Shown piece after piece: positions 1,303 through 26,445 of a stretch of 64,000 nt of DNA. The translations under genes and the position numbers were made by a program. This stretch comes from Acidimicrobiales bacterium (GTDB taxonomy: Bacteria > Actinomycetota > Acidimicrobiia > Acidimicrobiales > JAVJTC01): positions 1 through 64,000 of the forward strand of contig JAVJTC010000003.1 of the NCBI GenBank assembly GCA_040219085.1, given 5' to 3'. Under the pieces are notes generated by a model. The model was not told the origin of the DNA and made no database searches. It saw only the letters and a program-made list of their open reading frames with translations. Positions within the stretch are counted from its first letter, which is position 1; every line of letters starts with the position of its first letter.

Positions 1303-2603
1303 CCCACAAGGCACGGGGCGGACGACTGGTGGGCACCGAAGCTCTCGCACGCGTCGAGGGCGAGGGAGCGATGTACGTCGAGATCGACGGCGACGAGGTC
1401 CGCGACGTCCGACTCGACATCTACGAGCCACCCCGGTTCTACGAGGGGTTCCTGCGCGGGAGAGCCTGGTCGGAGCCGCCCGACATCACCGCGCGGATCT
1501 GCGGCATCTGCCCCGTCGCCTACCAGATGAGCGCATGCGCGGCGATCGAGGACGCGTTCGGCGTCGACGCCGGCGACCCGATCCGCCGGCTGCGGCGCCT
1601 TCTGTACGCCGGGGAGTGGATCGAGAGCCACACACTCCACATCCACTTCCTGCACGCTCCGGATTTCTTCGGCGTCGACAGCGGCATCGAGCTCGCCGCC
1701 ATCGACCGCCCGGCGGTGGAGCGGGCACTCGAGTTGAAGAAGCTCGGCAACCGCATCGTCGAGCGGATCGGCGGAAGAGCCATCCATCCCGTGAACATCC
1801 GCGTCGGGGGTTTCCACCGGCTGCCGACGCGCCGCGAGATCGCCGAGACCCGCGAGGACATGGCACGCGCCACGGATCTCGCAGAGGCCGTCGTCGACTG
1901 GGTCTCGCGCTTCGACTTCCCGGACTTCGAGACGACCCACGAACTCGTCGCGGTGCAGGATCCGGCGGGGTACCCCGTGCTCGGGGACAGGATCGTCTCG
2001 GACCGTGGACTCGACATCGCTGTGGGCGACTTCGACGACCACGTCGTCGAGACCCATGTCCCCCACTCGACCGCGCTGCACGCGCACCTCGTCGAGCGCG
2101 GCGAGTACCTGGTCGGCCCGCTCGCGCGCTACAGCCTCGCATCGGCCGCCCTGGCTCCCCGCGCCGCTGCGGCCGCCCGAGCCGCGGGCCTGGGCACCCG
2201 ATGCCGCAACCCCTTCCGCAGCATCGTCGTGCGCGCCGTCGAGACCCTGCACGCATGTGAGATCGCACTCGATGTCGTCGAGGACTACATCGAGCCTCCC
2301 GCCGCCCATGCGGTGGTGGAGCCCCGCGCCGGCGTCGGGCACGGCGTGACCGAAGCTCCCCGGGGCCTGCTGTATCACCGTTACGCCTTCGACGCCGAGG
2401 GAACGATCACCGACGTATCGATCGTCCCGCCGACCTCTCAGAACCAGGCCGCCATCGAACACGACCTGTGGCACTTCGTCGAGGACAACCTGGATCTCGG
2501 CGACGACGAACTGCGTCGCAGCGCCGAGGTCACGATCCGCAACCACGACCCCTGCATCTCGTGCGCGACCCACTTCCTCGACCTGACGGTCGTGCGGTCA
2601 TGA
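1299..2603 (+). CDS. hyhL: [NiFe] hydrogenase large (catalytic) subunit
   Basis: A 434-aa catalytic subunit. The N-terminal L1 motif RICGICP is at residues 66-72 (Cys68, Cys71), and the C-terminal L2 motif DPCISCATH at 417-425 (Cys419, Cys422). These four cysteines bind the Ni-Fe(CN)2CO centre that splits or forms H2. A nine-residue tail follows His425 and is the expected substrate of the maturation endopeptidase encoded next. Length and the compact L2 motif fit the bidirectional, NADP-linked group 3b. The ATG overlaps the hyhS stop (ATGA) and is preceded by GGGAGGTG about 8 bases upstream. In actinobacteria such enzymes are usually tied to redox balancing or fermentative H2 under oxygen limitation. 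Confidence 0.94.
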
Positions 2604-3067
2604 GACCCGTCGTCATCGGGGTCGGCAACCGCTGGCGGGGCGACGACGGCGTCGGCCCGGCCGTGATCGACCTGTTGCGTGCCGACGGTCGGCTGGACAC
2701 AACCGTTGCGGATCTCGCCGAACTGGACGGCGAGGCGACGCGGCTGGTCGACGCGATGGCGCACCGCTCCCTCGCTGTGGTCGTCGACGCCATGCGGTCC
2801 GGCGCAGCGCCGGGCACCGTACGGTCCCTGGTGGCTGGTGAGGTTGACCTGCCCACCACGACGTCGCTCAGCAGCCATGGCGCCGGGGTCGCGCATGCGG
2901 CGGGACTGGCCGCCGCCCTCGACCGGATGCCGGACCGACTCGTCGTGATCGGCGTGGAGATATCGGCGACCGCCGACGAGGGCCCGCTGTCGGCCGAAGT
3001 GACAGCCGCTCTTCCCGAGGCGGCGGCTCGCGTCGTCGAGGAGGTTCGACGCCATGTGTCTCGCTGA
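2600..3067 (+). CDS. hydrogenase maturation protease (HycI/HybD, peptidase M52)
   Basis: A 155-aa member of the nickel-dependent endopeptidase family that removes the C-terminal extension of the large subunit once nickel is in place. The N-terminal GVGNRWRGDDGVGPAV segment is the family signature. The three metal ligands of E. coli HybD (Glu16, Asp62, His93) have good counterparts in Asp16, Asp63 and His93. The start at 2600 overlaps the hyhL stop by 4 bases; a longer upstream frame lies within hyhL and is ignored. Its position right after hyhL, whose product ends in a cleavable nine-residue tail, supports the assignment. Confidence 0.9.
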   Translation: MRPVVIGVGNRWRGDDGVGPAVIDLLRADGRLDTTVADLAELDGEATRLVDAMAHRSLAVVVDAMRSGAAPGTVRSLVAGEVDLPTTTSLSSHGAGVAHAAGLAAALDRMPDRLVVIGVEISATADEGPLSAEVTAALPEAAARVVEEVRRHVSR

Positions 3068-3293
3068 CGTCGGGCGCGTGAGCACCGTGAGCGACGACGG
3101 CAAAACGGCGACCATCGTCATCGGCGACCACGACCGCAGGATCTCGCTCGCGCTTCTCGTCGTCGACGGTGTCACCGTCGCTCCCGGCGACTGGCTCGCG
3201 TGCCATCTGGGGCTGGCGACGCACCGCGTCAGTCCCACCGAGGCCGCCTCGATCGCCGCGGCCCGACAAGACGACCACAGGAGGTCGACGTGA
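3054..3293 (+). CDS. hypC: HypC/HupF family hydrogenase assembly chaperone
   Basis: A 79-aa protein that starts MCLADVGRV. The N-terminal Met-Cys of HypC proteins is essential: the exposed Cys2 carries the Fe(CN)2CO moiety with HypD and then binds the large-subunit precursor. The rest shows the small beta-barrel pattern of the family (a VxV strand, then VAPGDWLACHLGLA, corresponding to the VGDYVLVHVGFA region). It overlaps the protease gene by 14 bases in another frame. The other maturation genes (hypA, B, D, E, F) are not in the window, so they must be elsewhere. Confidence 0.85.
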   Translation: MCLADVGRVSTVSDDGKTATIVIGDHDRRISLALLVVDGVTVAPGDWLACHLGLATHRVSPTEAASIAAARQDDHRRST

Positions 3294-4225
3294 AGACGAT
3301 CGCCGGGAACATCAGAACACCCGCCCGCTGCGGCGGCCACGGGCTCGCCGCCACTGCAGCCGTCGTCTCGGGCATCGCGGTCTACACCAACGGGATCGCC
3401 GTGCGCCGCTTCGGCGACGCGACGAACTACACGACGGCCAAGAACCTCGTCGCGGCGCTGGTTCTCGTCTTCGTCGCGGTCGTCGCGCACGGGGCACGCG
3501 GGACCCGCGTCGCGATCACCACCGCCCCGAAGGCGGGCATCGCTGCCGTGGCCGTGGCCGGCAGCGTCCCGTTCGTCCTGTTCTTCGAAGGGCTGTCACG
3601 CGTGAACAGCACCGACGCGGCGTTCCTCCACAAGACCCTCGTCGTGTGGGTGGCGATCGGCGCCGTCGCCGTGCTCGGCGAGCGCCTCCGGTGGCACCAC
3701 CTCGTTGCGATCGTCGCCATCGGTTGGGGTCAACACGAACTCGTCGGTGGGTTCGGCCTCGGTGATCCCGGGTCCGGTGAGACGCTCATAACCGCGGCCA
3801 CCGTGATCTGGGCCGTCGAGGTGGTCGTGACGAAGCGCATGCTCGCGACGACGCCAGCCGCCGCCGTGAGTGCGGCCCGGATGGGCGGGGGTGCCATCGT
3901 GCTGCTCACCTGGGCGGCGCTGCGGGGCGCCCTCGGCGACGTGGTCGCGATCGGCTGGAGCGGCCTGGGGTGGGTGGTGCTCACAGGCGTCGTTCTCGCG
4001 GCGTTCGTGGCCCTGTGGCACCGGGCACTGGCGGTGGCCCCCGCGATCGACGTCACGGCAATCCTCGCCGGCGGCGCCGTCGTGACGGCCCTTCTGAACG
4101 GAGCGTCGGGGCGGGCCTCGATCGGTCCGGCGGCGCTCGGTCTGGCACTCGTCGCCGCCGGTGCGCTGATGGTCGCCGTTCAGATGCGCCCCACCGCGAC
4201 CCCGAGCGGCGCGGCGGCGCGATGA
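3290..4225 (+). CDS. EamA/DMT-family transporter in the hydrogenase operon
   Basis: A 311-aa integral membrane protein with about ten hydrophobic segments arranged as two EamA halves (residues about 20-150 and 165-300), as in drug/metabolite transporters. The second half contains the usual ALWHRALAVAPAIDVTAIL-like loop into the ninth helix. The GTG start at 3290 overlaps the hypC stop (GTGA) and has a strong AGGAGGT 5 bases upstream, so it is clearly part of the hydrogenase operon. The substrate cannot be read from the sequence; a link to nickel, iron or another hydrogenase-related metabolite is only a guess from position. Confidence 0.85.
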   Translation: MKTIAGNIRTPARCGGHGLAATAAVVSGIAVYTNGIAVRRFGDATNYTTAKNLVAALVLVFVAVVAHGARGTRVAITTAPKAGIAAVAVAGSVPFVLFFEGLSRVNSTDAAFLHKTLVVWVAIGAVAVLGERLRWHHLVAIVAIGWGQHELVGGFGLGDPGSGETLITAATVIWAVEVVVTKRMLATTPAAAVSAARMGGGAIVLLTWAALRGALGDVVAIGWSGLGWVVLTGVVLAAFVALWHRALAVAPAIDVTAILAGGAVVTALLNGASGRASIGPAALGLALVAAGALMVAVQMRPTATPSGAAAR

Positions 4226-20621: not shown

Positions 20622-22055
20622 GTGTCGTCGTCTGCGGGAATCGCCTCGATGCGGTGGATCCGCGTCGTCGTGGCAGCGGCGGCCGTCGTCTCGGCCGTGG
20701 GCGCCATGGCGACCGCGGAGGCAGCAGCAGCAGCTCCGCCGGCCAAGCCGATCGTCTATCTGACCTTCGACGACGGACCCTTGTCCAGCGGTACGACTGC
20801 GGTGCTCGATCTTCTGGATCGCTACGACGTCGACGCCACGTTCTTCGTGCTCGGGAGCCGCGTGGTTGAACAGCCCGCTCTGATCGCACGGATGCTGCGC
20901 GACGGCCACGCGCTCGGTGGACACTCGTGGGACCACCCCGACTATTCGCGCTCGAGCGATGCAGCGATCGCGTCCCAACTCGATCGAACAGCTGACGCGG
21001 TACGCAGCGCAGGAGGCCCTCCCCTCACCTGCCACAGGGCCCCATACGGCACCTCGACCACCGCCAGTCGCAGGCTGGCGGCAGAGCGCGGACTGGCCGA
21101 GATCTACTGGAACATCGACCCCGCCGACTACAGGAACTCCGCCTCGGGGATCGTCGGTCAACTCGAACGGGTGGTGAACGGGTCGGTGGTCCTTCTCCAC
21201 GACGGATCCACGAACTACCGGGTGACCGTCGCCGCTGTGGACAGGTGGCTTGGAGCCAACCGGGACCGCTACGACTTCCGGCCGCTGCCGGCGTGTTCCG
21301 GTGGACCTCCCGGCCCCCGCTCGGTACATCGTCCGCTCGGTTCCGTCGACACGGCGACCGCGGTCGCCGGGGGCGTCAAGCTCGCCGGCTGGGCCCTCGA
21401 CTGGGACGTTCCGGGCACCCCGACGCGTGTCCACGTCTATGTGGACGGCGCTTTCGGTGGCGAGTTCGCGGCGTCTTCGCGCCGCCCGGATGTCGCTGCC
21501 GCAACCGGCGCCGATGCCCGTCACGGCTTCGCGGGCTTCGTCCCCACGCCGCCCGGCGCCCATGAGGTTTGCGTCTTCGGTCTCGGCCTCGACAGCGCGG
21601 GGCGCTTCGACTCCCGCAACGCCGCCCTCGGCCCGTGTCGGAACGTGCGGGTGGGAACCAGCGGACATCCCGGCTCAGGGCCGACCACGCCCGCGCCCCC
21701 ACCCACACCACCGTCGCCCACCGGATCGAGCGTTCCGCGGGGGTACGTGGACCGCGTCGCCACGACCTCAGAGGGACTCGACGTCGCAGGTTGGGCACTC
21801 GATCCTGACGACGCCACCCGGTCGGTATTCGTACACGTCTACGTCGACGGCCGCTTCTGGGCGGAACGACGGGCGGCCTCAGTGCGCCCCGACGTGAACA
21901 CGGCCCTGGCCGTGGGTGGCTCACACGGATTCACCGTGCGGGGCGCCGTCGGGCCCGGACGCCACGACGTCTGCGTCTACGTCCTGGGCATCGACCGCAT
22001 CGGCGCCCTCGACGCCATGAACCCGCTGCTCGGTTGTCGCACCGTGGCGTCGTAG
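20622..22055 (+). CDS. secreted polysaccharide deacetylase with two C-terminal repeat domains
   Basis: A 477-aa exported protein. A signal peptide (RWIRVVVAAAAVVSAVGA, cleavage near the AEAAAAAP run) is followed by a NodB deacetylase domain (about residues 42-220) with TFDDGP (catalytic Asp and metal Asp), HSWDH (both metal His), RAPYGTS and LLHDG. The rest consists of two copies of a domain of about 75 residues (LAGWALDWDVP...VHVYVDG...RPDV...HGF...VCV and VAGWALDPDD...VHVYVDG...), joined by a Pro/Thr linker. The domain probably binds cell wall or carbohydrate. GTG start with GAGGAG upstream; an ATG at 20649 is the alternative. Confidence 0.9.
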   Translation: MSSSAGIASMRWIRVVVAAAAVVSAVGAMATAEAAAAAPPAKPIVYLTFDDGPLSSGTTAVLDLLDRYDVDATFFVLGSRVVEQPALIARMLRDGHALGGHSWDHPDYSRSSDAAIASQLDRTADAVRSAGGPPLTCHRAPYGTSTTASRRLAAERGLAEIYWNIDPADYRNSASGIVGQLERVVNGSVVLLHDGSTNYRVTVAAVDRWLGANRDRYDFRPLPACSGGPPGPRSVHRPLGSVDTATAVAGGVKLAGWALDWDVPGTPTRVHVYVDGAFGGEFAASSRRPDVAAATGADARHGFAGFVPTPPGAHEVCVFGLGLDSAGRFDSRNAALGPCRNVRVGTSGHPGSGPTTPAPPPTPPSPTGSSVPRGYVDRVATTSEGLDVAGWALDPDDATRSVFVHVYVDGRFWAERRAASVRPDVNTALAVGGSHGFTVRGAVGPGRHDVCVYVLGIDRIGALDAMNPLLGCRTVAS

Positions 22056-22065
22056 GTCACATCGA

Positions 22066-24210
22066 ATGGACGCCATCGCTGCCCCGGGCGAACACGAGGT
22101 CCTCGTCTTCCTCACGCAACTGACCATTCTGCTCGCTGCGGCGCGCATCCTCGGGTGGGCCTTCGGCCGCCTACGCCAGCCTTCGGTCATCGGGGAACTA
22201 CTCGCCGGTGTCCTGCTCGGTCCGTCCGTGTTCGGTCGAGCGTGGCCCGATGGCGCCGAATGGCTCTTCCCGGCAGGCGAGACACAGGGGGCGATGCTCT
22301 TCGCCGTCGCGTGACTGGGCCTCGTCCTGCTCCTGGCCAGCACGGGATTCGAGTCCGACCTGGACATCCTGCGCCGACTCGGCCGGCCGGCGATCTGCGT
22401 CGCGACGGGCAGCCTCGTCGTTCCACTCGGGGTCGGTTTCGCCGTGGGGCTCGCCGTTCCGGGCGAACTCCTCGGGCCTGAGGCCACACAGGGAACCTTC
22501 GCCGCGTTCCTCGCAGTGGCGCTCTCGATCTCCTCACTACCGGTGGTGGCTCGGGTCCTCGCCGACCTCGGTCTGCTGCGCCGCGATGTCTCACAGATCA
22601 TCATCGGCGCAGCGATCGCGAACGACGTGGTCGGCTGGCTTCTACTGGGAGTGGTCGCCGGCCTTGCGGAGAAGGGCTCGGTGAACCTGGGCGAGACAGT
22701 TGGCACCGTCGCGTGGATGGCCGTCTTCCTCGTCGCCATGCTCACCGTCGGCCAGCGCCTGACCGACCGGGCACTGCGTCTCGTCTCATCGACCACCCAA
22801 CCTGCGACCAGCCAGACGGTCCTCGTCGTGACGATCGTCCTGGGTGCTGCTGCGGTGACGCAGTGGATCGGCGTCGAGGCGGTTCTCGGAGCGTTCATCG
22901 GCGGCGTCATCGTGGGCCGTTCCCGCTGGCGCGACGAGCGCGTCATCCGCCTCGTCGAGAACGTCGCGCACAGCCTGCTCGCCCCCGTTTTCTTCGCCAC
23001 CGCCGGCCTTCGTGTCGATCTCGGCGCGTTCGCCGACCCGACGGTCGCACTGTGGAGCGTGATCATCGTCGCCGTCGCGTCCGCGACGAAGTTCGTCGGG
23101 GCGACGGTCGGCGCGGCCGTCGGACACCTCCCGCGCCGCGAGGGTGTCGCTCTCGGCGTAGCTCTCAACGCCCGGGGAGCCCTGGAGATCGTGATCGCGG
23201 CGGTCGGCTTGTCCATAGGAGTCCTCGACGACGACTCCTATGCGGTCATCGTCGTCATGGCGATCGCCACCTCGGTCGCCGCCCCTCCCCTGCTGCGAGC
23301 GACCCTCGGCTCATGGCAGGGGACCGAGGCCGAACAACGCCGACTTGCCGCTGAGGACTCCGAGAGAACCCGACTGATCACGGGACATCGCGCGCCGCTG
23401 CTTCGGGACAACGCGGACCCTCCGACGGTCGTCGCTGCGCAGATCGTGGACCTGTGCTGGCCTTCAGGAGTAGCGGTCACGCTGGTCAGATCCGATGGCT
23501 GCGCCTCCCCTGAACACGTCGACGCAGTTCACAACGTGCTCGCCGAGCGCAGAACCGACGTCGTCCGCACCGAGCCGCTCCTGGCGGGGGCACGCCTCAT
23601 TCGCGAAGCGGCGCGCGGCTATTCCGCCGTGGTGGTGGGTCTCCCCGGCAACAGCGGGGCTGAGCTTCCACACGACGTCGCCGCGCTGTTGTCGTCGTCG
23701 ACGATCCCGACTGTGTTGGTACGACCCGAGCGTGTCCCCGACCAGAAGCTGCCTGGAGCGTTCGGCCGGGCGCTCGTACCGGTGACAGGAACGGTTGCGT
23801 CACAGGCGGCTCAGGAGCTCGCCGCGGGCGTGGCCGGCCGTCTCGGCACTGAGCTCGTGCTCGCTCACATCGACACGTCACCACGGACGCTCGCGCCCTT
23901 CGGGAGCGACCCGCTGGTCCACCCGCTCACACCCGGCGACGTCCTTCTGCGCAGTGCCCACGAGCAGGCGATGCGCAGTGGCACGCCGCGGGCACGGACG
24001 GTTTCGATCGCCGGGTCGAGCCCTGCCGAACGACTCGTGGAACTCTGCGGTGCCGAAGACGTGGACGTGATCATCGTCGGGGCGACACCGCGGAGCTCGG
24101 ACGGGTTCGTCTACCTCGGGCCGGTGGTGTCCCACCTCCTCGAGCACAGCCCGGTAACGGTCGTCGTGGCGGTCGTCCCTCCCGGCTGGGTCGCTGCACG
24201 GGCTTCCTGA
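22066..24210 (+). pseudogene. CPA2 monovalent cation/proton antiporter with USP domains, interrupted by in-frame TGA
   Basis: Read through its one stop, this is a 714-codon gene: a Kef/NapA-type antiporter membrane domain (about residues 10-410; RQPSVIGELLAGVLLGPS, then NDVVGWLLLGVV, the conserved Asp pair region, and ARGALEIVIA) followed by two universal-stress-type domains. A TGA at 22312-22314 (codon 83) splits it in the third helix, between GAMLFAVA and LGLVLLLASTGFESDL, where relatives run on without a break; TGG (Trp) would restore it. Frame and similarity are the same on both sides. As it stands only an 82-residue stub, or an internal start near 22444 (lacking two helices), could be made. 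It may be a recent pseudogene, a sequencing error or true readthrough. Confidence 0.8.
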
Positions 24211-24241: not shown

Positions 24242-24493
24242 TCAGCCCCTAGCGCCGCCCGGGGTGGTCCAGCTCAAGCCCTCGAACCTCGCGAAGTCCC
24301 TGTCGTAGGAGACGAGCGTGCAGCGGTGCTCGAGCGCGAGGGCGGCGAGGTGGGCGTCATTGACCAGATTGCCGCCCGACCCGACGCCCGGGAGGAGTGA
24401 CCGCGCAAGGCGGGAATGGCCGACCCCGGGTTCGAGAACCACCCCCCACGGAGCACCGAGCCATGCGTCGACCGTCTCCACCGCAGCAGCCAC
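24242..24493 (-). pseudogene. 5'-truncated VapC-type PIN-domain toxin
   Basis: An 83-aa frame matching only the C-terminal 60% of PIN toxins: GVVLEPG, GGNLVNDAHLAALALEH (with the conserved acidic Asp) and SYDRDFARFEGLSW. The first acidic residues (the VDANVLLY start) are missing. In the same frame, similarity continues upstream of the start codon (RLAVFPAPLDVAAAV, coded up to about 24530), where the DNA is the 3' end of another gene, so the toxin's 5' part has been lost or replaced. No antitoxin gene is adjacent. Probably inactive. Confidence 0.7.
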
Positions 24494-24516: not shown

Positions 24517-24972
24517 CTAGACGCCCGGCTTCCAGATCATGAGGACGATCATGACGAGGAAGAGCGCGGTGAGCACCATGCCTGCGATCTCGACCCGCTT
24601 CTCGGCCGACGCATCACCATCGGCGAGTTTGCGCTCTGCAGGCAGCAGGACGGCGTGCAGGATCCCGTTCATTGCGATCCAGACGGCGAACGATGCACTC
24701 ACCCATCCCTGGCTGAACTCCCACGCGTCGTCGGACAGGAGTATCAGCAAGATGCCGAGTCCACCGGTGACGATGAGGGCGGGCGCATAGATGCGCCGGC
24801 CGTTCTGGGCGATGAAATTGAGAATCGCTGTCCGGGCCTCGGGCGACGCCGAACGCGACTGGATGTTCATCACTGGATGAGCGATGACCGGGGCGAAGGC
24901 GACCACGAACGACACGACGTGGAGCGCAAGAACGACGTTGTAGAGGTCGTCACCGACCGCAGCGAAGATCAT
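24517..24972 (-). CDS. small integral membrane protein (DUF2269-like)
   Basis: A 151-aa protein with four hydrophobic helices: ALHVVSFVVAFAPVIAHPVM, ALIVTGGLGILLILL, a segment around ASFAVWIAMNGILHAVLL, and a last one ending MIVLMIWKPGV. The first-helix His and the general layout resemble DUF2269 proteins, of unknown function. The ATG at 24972 is preferred because the additional upstream 39 residues are Pro/Arg-rich and lack similarity. Its 3' end overlaps the region of the truncated PIN gene. Confidence 0.7.
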   Translation of the reverse strand: MIFAAVGDDLYNVVLALHVVSFVVAFAPVIAHPVMNIQSRSASPEARTAILNFIAQNGRRIYAPALIVTGGLGILLILLSDDAWEFSQGWVSASFAVWIAMNGILHAVLLPAERKLADGDASAEKRVEIAGMVLTALFLVMIVLMIWKPGV

Positions 24973-25110
24973 GCCCTCGTTTCTAGCAGCCTCTGCAGCC
25001 CGGAGCAGTCGTCGCGGCGGCGCAGGCATCAGATGGCCTCGGGGCGGGTTTCGGCACGGCACGACCGGCCGCGTGGTCCACGGGTGCACCTCGCCGACCG
25101 GGAGACCGAG

Positions 25111-25524: not shown

Positions 25525-26445
25525 ATGTATCGATTCAAGAACATCTTGTTCAGCCCGCTCTCGGAGCATGGCAATCCGGCAGCGATTCGACGCGTCGGTG
25601 AGCTCGCTGCCGGGAACGGCGCGACCCTGACCCTGCTCGGTGTGGTTGCTGAGCCGTCCCGGTTACAGCGCCTCCTGCAGAACTCGGCGATGCTCGACGA
25701 AGCGGTGGAGGCCGAACGGTCCCGTCTCGACAAGGCACTCGGTCGTTGGGTGGAACACGCCCCGCCCGGGGCGCTCACCCGCGTCGGCGTCGGCGATCCC
25801 GCCCTGCGCGTCATCGAGGAGGTGCTGGGCGAGGGCCAAGACCTGGTCGTCGTGACGAACGATGACGATCGCGGTGGCCGGGCGGCGGTTCGCCAACTAT
25901 TGAGGAAGTGCCCGTGTCCTGTCTGGGTGATCCGGCCGACCCGTGCTCGGACTCAACGCGTCCTCGCCGCGGTGAATCCCGATCCGAGCGAGGCCGAGCT
26001 CAACCGGACGATTCTCGAGCTCGCGACATCGATGGTCGACCTGCACGGCGGCGAACTCCACGTCCTGCACGCATGGGAGCTGTACGGCGAGGCCACCATG
26101 CGCAGCTCCGCATTCATGCACGTCCCACCTGCTGCATTGGATGAGCTTCTCGACGAGGAACGGGCCAAGCACAGTGCTGCCCTCGACGAGCTCGTCGCGT
26201 CGTCGTCGGTTCCAGAGACGGCGTGCCAGGTGCATCTGACGAAGGGCGAGGCCGCTGAGGTGATCACCGCCGCGGTGGCGCAGCACCGGATCAATCTGTT
26301 GGTGATGGGAACCGTGGCCCGCACGGGAGTGAACGCGATGGTCATGGGCAACACGGCCGAACGCGTCCTCGACGAGGTCAGCTGCTCGGTGATCGCGGTG
26401 AAACCCGAGGACTTCGTCTCTCCGATCAGACCGCGGGCCGAATGA
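25525..26445 (+). CDS. tandem universal stress protein
   Basis: A 306-aa protein with two USP domains (about 1-140 and 150-298). The second keeps an ATP-type nucleotide-binding motif, LLVMGTVARTGVNAMVMGNTAERVL, close to G-x2-G-x9-G-S/T. The first is more divergent. It overlaps the next gene by 4 bases (ATGA). Confidence 0.9.
   Translation: MYRFKNILFSPLSEHGNPAAIRRVGELAAGNGATLTLLGVVAEPSRLQRLLQNSAMLDEAVEAERSRLDKALGRWVEHAPPGALTRVGVGDPALRVIEEVLGEGQDLVVVTNDDDRGGRAAVRQLLRKCPCPVWVIRPTRARTQRVLAAVNPDPSEAELNRTILELATSMVDLHGGELHVLHAWELYGEATMRSSAFMHVPPAALDELLDEERAKHSAALDELVASSSVPETACQVHLTKGEAAEVITAAVAQHRINLLVMGTVARTGVNAMVMGNTAERVLDEVSCSVIAVKPEDFVSPIRPRAE

Follow-up and report, generated by a model that had tools for sequence, protein, structure and literature searches.

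A single in-frame TGA in a CPA2-Usp antiporter gene of Acidimicrobiales is probably a recent nonsense lesion

An antiporter gene of the CPA2 type with a C-terminal Usp domain is interrupted at codon 83 by one in-frame TGA, which stands in a strongly conserved tryptophan column; the sequence beyond the stop displays no decay, and an intact paralog is present in the same genome. As the most probable explanation, we favor with moderate confidence that a nonsense lesion arose recently in an accessory, redundant gene. Three points of this explanation are inferred: the base would be genuine in the population sequenced, the change recent, and the antiporter function covered by the paralog.

RESULTS

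The interrupted gene and its surroundings

The window, i.e., the whole analyzed stretch of 64,000 nucleotides, belongs to a contig of 142,848 bases in a genome assembly of 3.77 Mb (45 contigs, 96% complete, 2% contamination). The closest relatives with a name are metagenome bins of the Acidimicrobiia; one of them, JAUIIS010000158.1, carries the nearest homolog of the gene (L005) and belongs to the order of the window, which places the host in that class. The following features are relevant here.

22066 to 24210, plus strand: CPA2 antiporter-Usp gene, broken at codon 83; 714-codon frame with one internal TGA and matches to PF00999 and PF00582
22312 to 22314, plus strand: in-frame TGA in a column that is TGG in 88 of 97 homologs (sequence, alignment)
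22066 to 22314, plus strand: predicted truncated product of 82 residues, without most of the transport domain including N186-D187
22315 to 24210, plus strand: post-stop frame, open, coding-like and without decay (GC at third codon positions [GC3], near-invariant columns, coding score, Pfam)
22315 to 22340, plus strand: imperfect inverted repeat CTGGgCC/GGCCAG with a 13-base loop, not significant
22444 to 22446, plus strand: GTG, the earliest in-frame start past the TGA; re-initiation here would cost residues 1 to 126

A polysaccharide-deacetylase frame (20622-22055) ends 10 bases before the gene, which runs from the ATG at 22066 to the TGA at 24208-24210; apart from codon 83, no internal stop or frameshift was found between these positions. 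In a Pfam search, the read-through product scored above the curated cut-offs of both PF00999 (186.8 bits, residues 26 to 410, a match that spans the TGA) and PF00582, the Usp family (50.3 bits, residues 567 to 701), and the post-stop part alone still reached 161 bits for PF00999 and 50.6 bits for Usp. The match to TIGR00932 (154.6 bits) remained under the cut-off of that family (238.3 bits). As judged from these domain matches, the read-through frame encodes an antiporter of the CPA2 type that carries a Usp domain at its C terminus. The original prediction had stated that the frame and the similarity to CPA2 antiporters are unbroken on both sides of the TGA, that a TGG would restore a 714-residue antiporter-USP protein, and that the rest of the gene has no other lesion; all of this agrees with the crossing PF00999 match, the length obtained if the TGA is passed, and the absence of a second internal stop, a frameshift or visible decay.

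Two neighbors on the downstream side deserve mention. A PIN-domain remnant (24242-24493, minus strand), presumably VapC-like, matches only positions 67 to 118 of a 120-position profile, lacks the N-terminal half, and adjoins a UPF0093 membrane-protein gene (24517-25089, minus strand). The partial state of this remnant indicates that gene loss seems to have occurred beside the antiporter. Furthermore, a stand-alone double Usp protein with two PF00582 stretches is encoded at 25525-26445 (plus strand), near the antiporter-Usp gene.

Codon 83 in related genes

The search of the order covered 397 genomes, 91 of which had a match, and yielded 96 matches including the query. The widest alignment (n = 98) comprised the query, the order-wide matches with E values of ≤1e-100, L036 from a named collection and L038 from a class search; L037, which matches over 24 residues at the edge of a contig, and L035, a sequence on the same contig as the nearest homolog, were kept outside the counts. 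At the codon 83 column, TGG is present in 88 of the 97 homologs, and the remaining nine carry codons for Phe (1), Thr (3), Gln (1), Ala (3) and Glu (1); neither Cys nor a stop occurs in any of the 97. Smaller sets gave TGG throughout, i.e., in 30/30 relatives aligned over this column and in 33/33, in line with the proposal that the site is conserved. On the evidence of these alignments, the column is strongly Trp in the family, yet not obligatory. Seven more terminal stops in the homolog tables are natural ends (L019, L086, L092, L103, L106, L121 and L141).

An accessory clade and an intact paralog

The host genome contains an intact paralog of 44% identity (L004, G000:C4:45159-47246), which belongs to the main clade of the family. 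In a tree of 34 sequences, the query groups with L005, L036 and L038 in a separate clade (support of 1.000) apart from the main family. Both the paralog and the clade sister L036 have the PF00999 plus PF00582 architecture of the query. The nearest homolog, L005 (53%; JAUIIS010000158.1), comes from a genome placed in the order of the window, and this genome also has an intact main-clade copy (L034, 46% to the query). Judged by gene content, the query clade thus appears to supply an accessory second copy of the gene in two genomes or more; such a status, together with the intact paralog, suggests that loss of the antiporter would be tolerable.

L005 has an internal TGA of its own, at codon 154 of the matched stretch, within the motif around residue 156; in this column (Ser156), all 97 remaining sequences of the 98 carry a Ser codon. 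The query and L005 are the only two of the 98 aligned sequences with internal stops, and the sites differ; a conserved signal shared by both was therefore rejected. The title of the L005 contig reads cov_1.114166, i.e., a coverage of about 1.11x. Since the site and the residue are different and the coverage is onefold, a base-call error is the simplest explanation for the TGA of L005.

Selection beyond the stop

The frame retains its coding character across the TGA. GC at codon positions 1, 2 and 3 is 0.768, 0.500 and 0.793 before the stop and 0.754, 0.513 and 0.813 after it, and the coding score per codon is 0.224 versus 0.183. At near-invariant columns, defined by at most one deviating sequence among the other 33, the query deviates in 0/16 cases before and 4/95 after the stop; the corresponding post-stop changes of its clade siblings are 3/97 (L005), 6/98 (L036) and 12/101 (L038). 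The terminal branch of the query in the 34-sequence tree (0.57) likewise resembles those of its siblings (0.53, 0.65 and 1.01). Third-position differences between clade members (0.51 to 0.70) are too high for a reliable dS, and position-wise differences were therefore used instead of dN/dS. Between the query and L005, they amount to 0.31, 0.26 and 0.70 at the three positions for residues 6 to 82, to 0.26, 0.21 and 0.62 for residues 84 to 410, and to 0.50, 0.37 and 0.68 for the less conserved residues 411 to 705. No decay or relaxed selection was seen after the stop, and a very recent stop would show none either. These sequence comparisons indicate that the gene has been under selection until recently or still is, and they date the stop no more finely. 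Such an intact post-stop frame is expected after a recent lesion, and just as much from an error or from a readthrough gene that works.

The contig was also scanned for further genes interrupted by a single stop; none was found in the 7 places read of 11 listed, and all 7 look like ordinary gene ends with other sequence beyond. The scan is insensitive; it missed the TGA at 22312-22314 because an antisense frame scored 16.3 versus 15.6 in the 60 codons past the stop.

Decoding of UGA in the host

The base after the TGA is a C, as had been noted originally and described as a context of weak termination in some organisms, and the complementarity of CTGGgCC (22315-22321) and GGCCAG (22335-22340), proposed as an imperfect hairpin 3' of the stop, is present in the sequence. 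Neither holds as a readthrough cue. Of the 46 long frames of the contig that end in TGA, 16 have C as the next base, and the TGG of 32 of 88 relatives is also followed by a C, which is frequent there because Leu codons are common at that place. Folding of the post-TGA sequence was no more stable than that of dinucleotide shuffles (z score of +0.43; four other cuts gave +1.40, −0.40, +1.01 and −0.22, i.e., chance level).

The host encodes an intact RF2 (prfB, 489 bits), and UGA thus is a stop in this organism. One tRNA-Trp gene was found, with the anticodon CCA; as read from its sequence, five Watson-Crick pairs form the anticodon stem, and a G occupies position 24. TGA ends 46 of the 61 long frames of the contig, which are nonoverlapping frames rather than verified genes. 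A reassignment of UGA to Trp was discarded in view of RF2, the tRNA-Trp with its 5-bp stem and this stop usage. With RF2 intact, a normal tRNA-Trp, folding at chance and TGAC being common, no programmed readthrough is indicated; there is neither a conserved stop in any of the 97 relatives nor a stimulating structure or context, and nothing points to programmed readthrough or recoding at the antiporter TGA.

The presence of the selenocysteine pathway in the host called for a test of this amino acid at the antiporter TGA. A tRNA-Sec with the anticodon UCA (64.9 bits, cut-off of 47; L039 1497-1592, minus strand) was identified, in agreement with ARAGORN, and SelB (314.5 bits; L063 809-2539, minus strand) and SelA (383.5 bits; 2540-3844, minus strand) adjoin in one cluster. 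With this selB-selA cluster and the tRNA-Sec, the host is a selenocysteine-using member of the Acidimicrobiia. A formate dehydrogenase-like (FdhA-like) frame (L065, G000:C4:90985-92853, minus strand; 619.3 bits, under the curated family cut-off of 666.25) contains one in-frame TGA, and 18 nt further on, a stem of 6 bp carries a GGUCU loop. This hairpin, which we take to resemble the E. coli element, is a good reference SECIS for the lineage. A GGUCU-type hairpin like that of the FdhA-like frame is absent after the antiporter TGA.

A loose rule for bacterial SECIS elements demands a loop 16 to 37 nt downstream with a G in the first two loop positions and a stem of at least 4 bp. The antiporter TGA satisfies this rule, as do 581 of 690 codons of the gene and the TGG codon of 29 of 33 relatives, and the weak hairpin candidates of the antiporter therefore mean nothing. 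Selenocysteine was rejected on the lack of a host-like SECIS and of any Cys homolog.

DISCUSSION

According to the explanation that we prefer, a nonsense substitution would recently have hit an accessory CPA2-Usp antiporter gene at codon 83. The ribosome would stop once 82 residues are made, with most of the transport domain still missing, which is why this copy would be nonfunctional or nearly so, possibly with a small full-length yield from leaky UGA reading. The loss would be tolerable, as an intact paralog of the same architecture is retained in the genome. The undamaged frame before and after the TGA argues for such a lesion, as do the homologs with TGG or nine varied sense codons but never a stop, the presence of RF2, the CCA anticodon of tRNA-Trp, the lack of a host-like SECIS, and the 44% paralog. 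It is also supported by the accessory-looking clade, by the main-clade copies L004 and L034 that were kept in the two genomes, and by the gene remnant next door. Two observations speak against it: the absent decay fits an error or a working readthrough gene equally, and it would be odd, if stops arose at random, that the nearest pair holds the only internal stops of 98 sequences, even if at different sites. The original prediction had named a very recent pseudogene, a base-call error and programmed readthrough as the options; this list and the lack of decay were right, whereas both cues for readthrough failed.

The second likeliest explanation after a recent nonsense lesion, possible but less probable, is an error of base calling or consensus or a mixture of strains, in which case the assembled A would be wrong and the gene of the organism intact. 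The otherwise undamaged gene, which resembles its clade siblings in GC3, near-invariant columns and branch length, is what an error would leave; the change takes a single base (47 transitions in this gene could create a stop, and this is one of them), and the stop of L005 on a contig of 1.11x coverage makes such artifacts plausible in similar data. The quality of the assembly and the length of the contig argue against an error, as does, weakly, the lack of a second single-stop case in the 7 of 11 places read in a scan that overlooked the antiporter TGA itself. Readthrough, by which near-cognate insertion of Trp would keep the antiporter working, possibly as a low-level control of expression, is rather unlikely. 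It would account for the signs of purifying selection in the post-stop frame, and UGA is known as leaky; in-frame stops with dN/dS below 1 are, according to the available part of PMC7918605, widespread and short-lived. Against readthrough stand the lack of a stop in the codon 83 column of all 97 relatives, the ordinary next base, the absence of significant structure, the intact RF2, and a tRNA-Trp without the 4-bp anticodon stem and A24 described in the accessible portion of PMC13092985.

A broader variant, for which we see very little probability, is that the accessory clade tolerates or uses in-frame UGA and that expression depends on its leaky reading, resulting in a low-dose antiporter in Acidimicrobiia. 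A single UGA in an otherwise intact gene was found in 2 of the 4 clade members (the query and L005) versus 0 of the 94 others; if true, this would mean dosage control via leaky stops in an uncultured actinobacterial class. That the gene now works in two parts, with a short peptide from the N terminus and a C-terminal protein made by re-initiation, is hardly credible: the in-frame GTG at 22444 does open a frame of 588 residues, but it lies about 130 bases past the TGA, the 126 lost residues include the well-conserved post-stop helix, and none of the 97 relatives is interrupted at this site. Least probable of all is that the TGA codes for selenocysteine. The host genome would be equipped for it (tRNA-Sec UCA, SelA, SelB, and the FdhA-like frame with its own in-frame TGA), but the GGUCU-loop stem of that frame is not matched at the antiporter, the loose rule is satisfied nearly everywhere in the gene, and no homolog has Cys. 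Moreover, a membrane helix is not a redox site. Most likely, the antiporter TGA is therefore an ordinary finding and not a special decoding signal. It advises caution, since a lone in-frame UGA in a selenocysteine-making genome mimics recoding until it is checked against the selenoprotein signal of the host and the column of the homologs.

Compared with known CPA2 antiporters with a C-terminal Usp domain (PF00999 plus PF00582), the gene agrees in domain order, length and conserved residues including N186-D187, but differs by the stop at codon 83. With selenoprotein genes, which combine a UGA with a bacterial SECIS, it shares a host that has the pathway; unlike them, it lacks a SECIS like that of the host and a Cys homolog. 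A 4-bp anticodon stem and A24 of tRNA-Trp have been linked to UGA reading in the portion of PMC13092985 available, and the host tRNA-Trp differs from this type in both traits. The available part of PMC7918605 describes in-frame stops with dN/dS below 1 as widespread among conserved genes of bacteria and, for the most part, as short-lived; that study required the stop in orthologs of two or more species, whereas the antiporter stop is found in one genome only. In other respects the antiporter is like the single-stop genes described there, with one stop, signs of purifying selection on both sides of it, and a probably short life.
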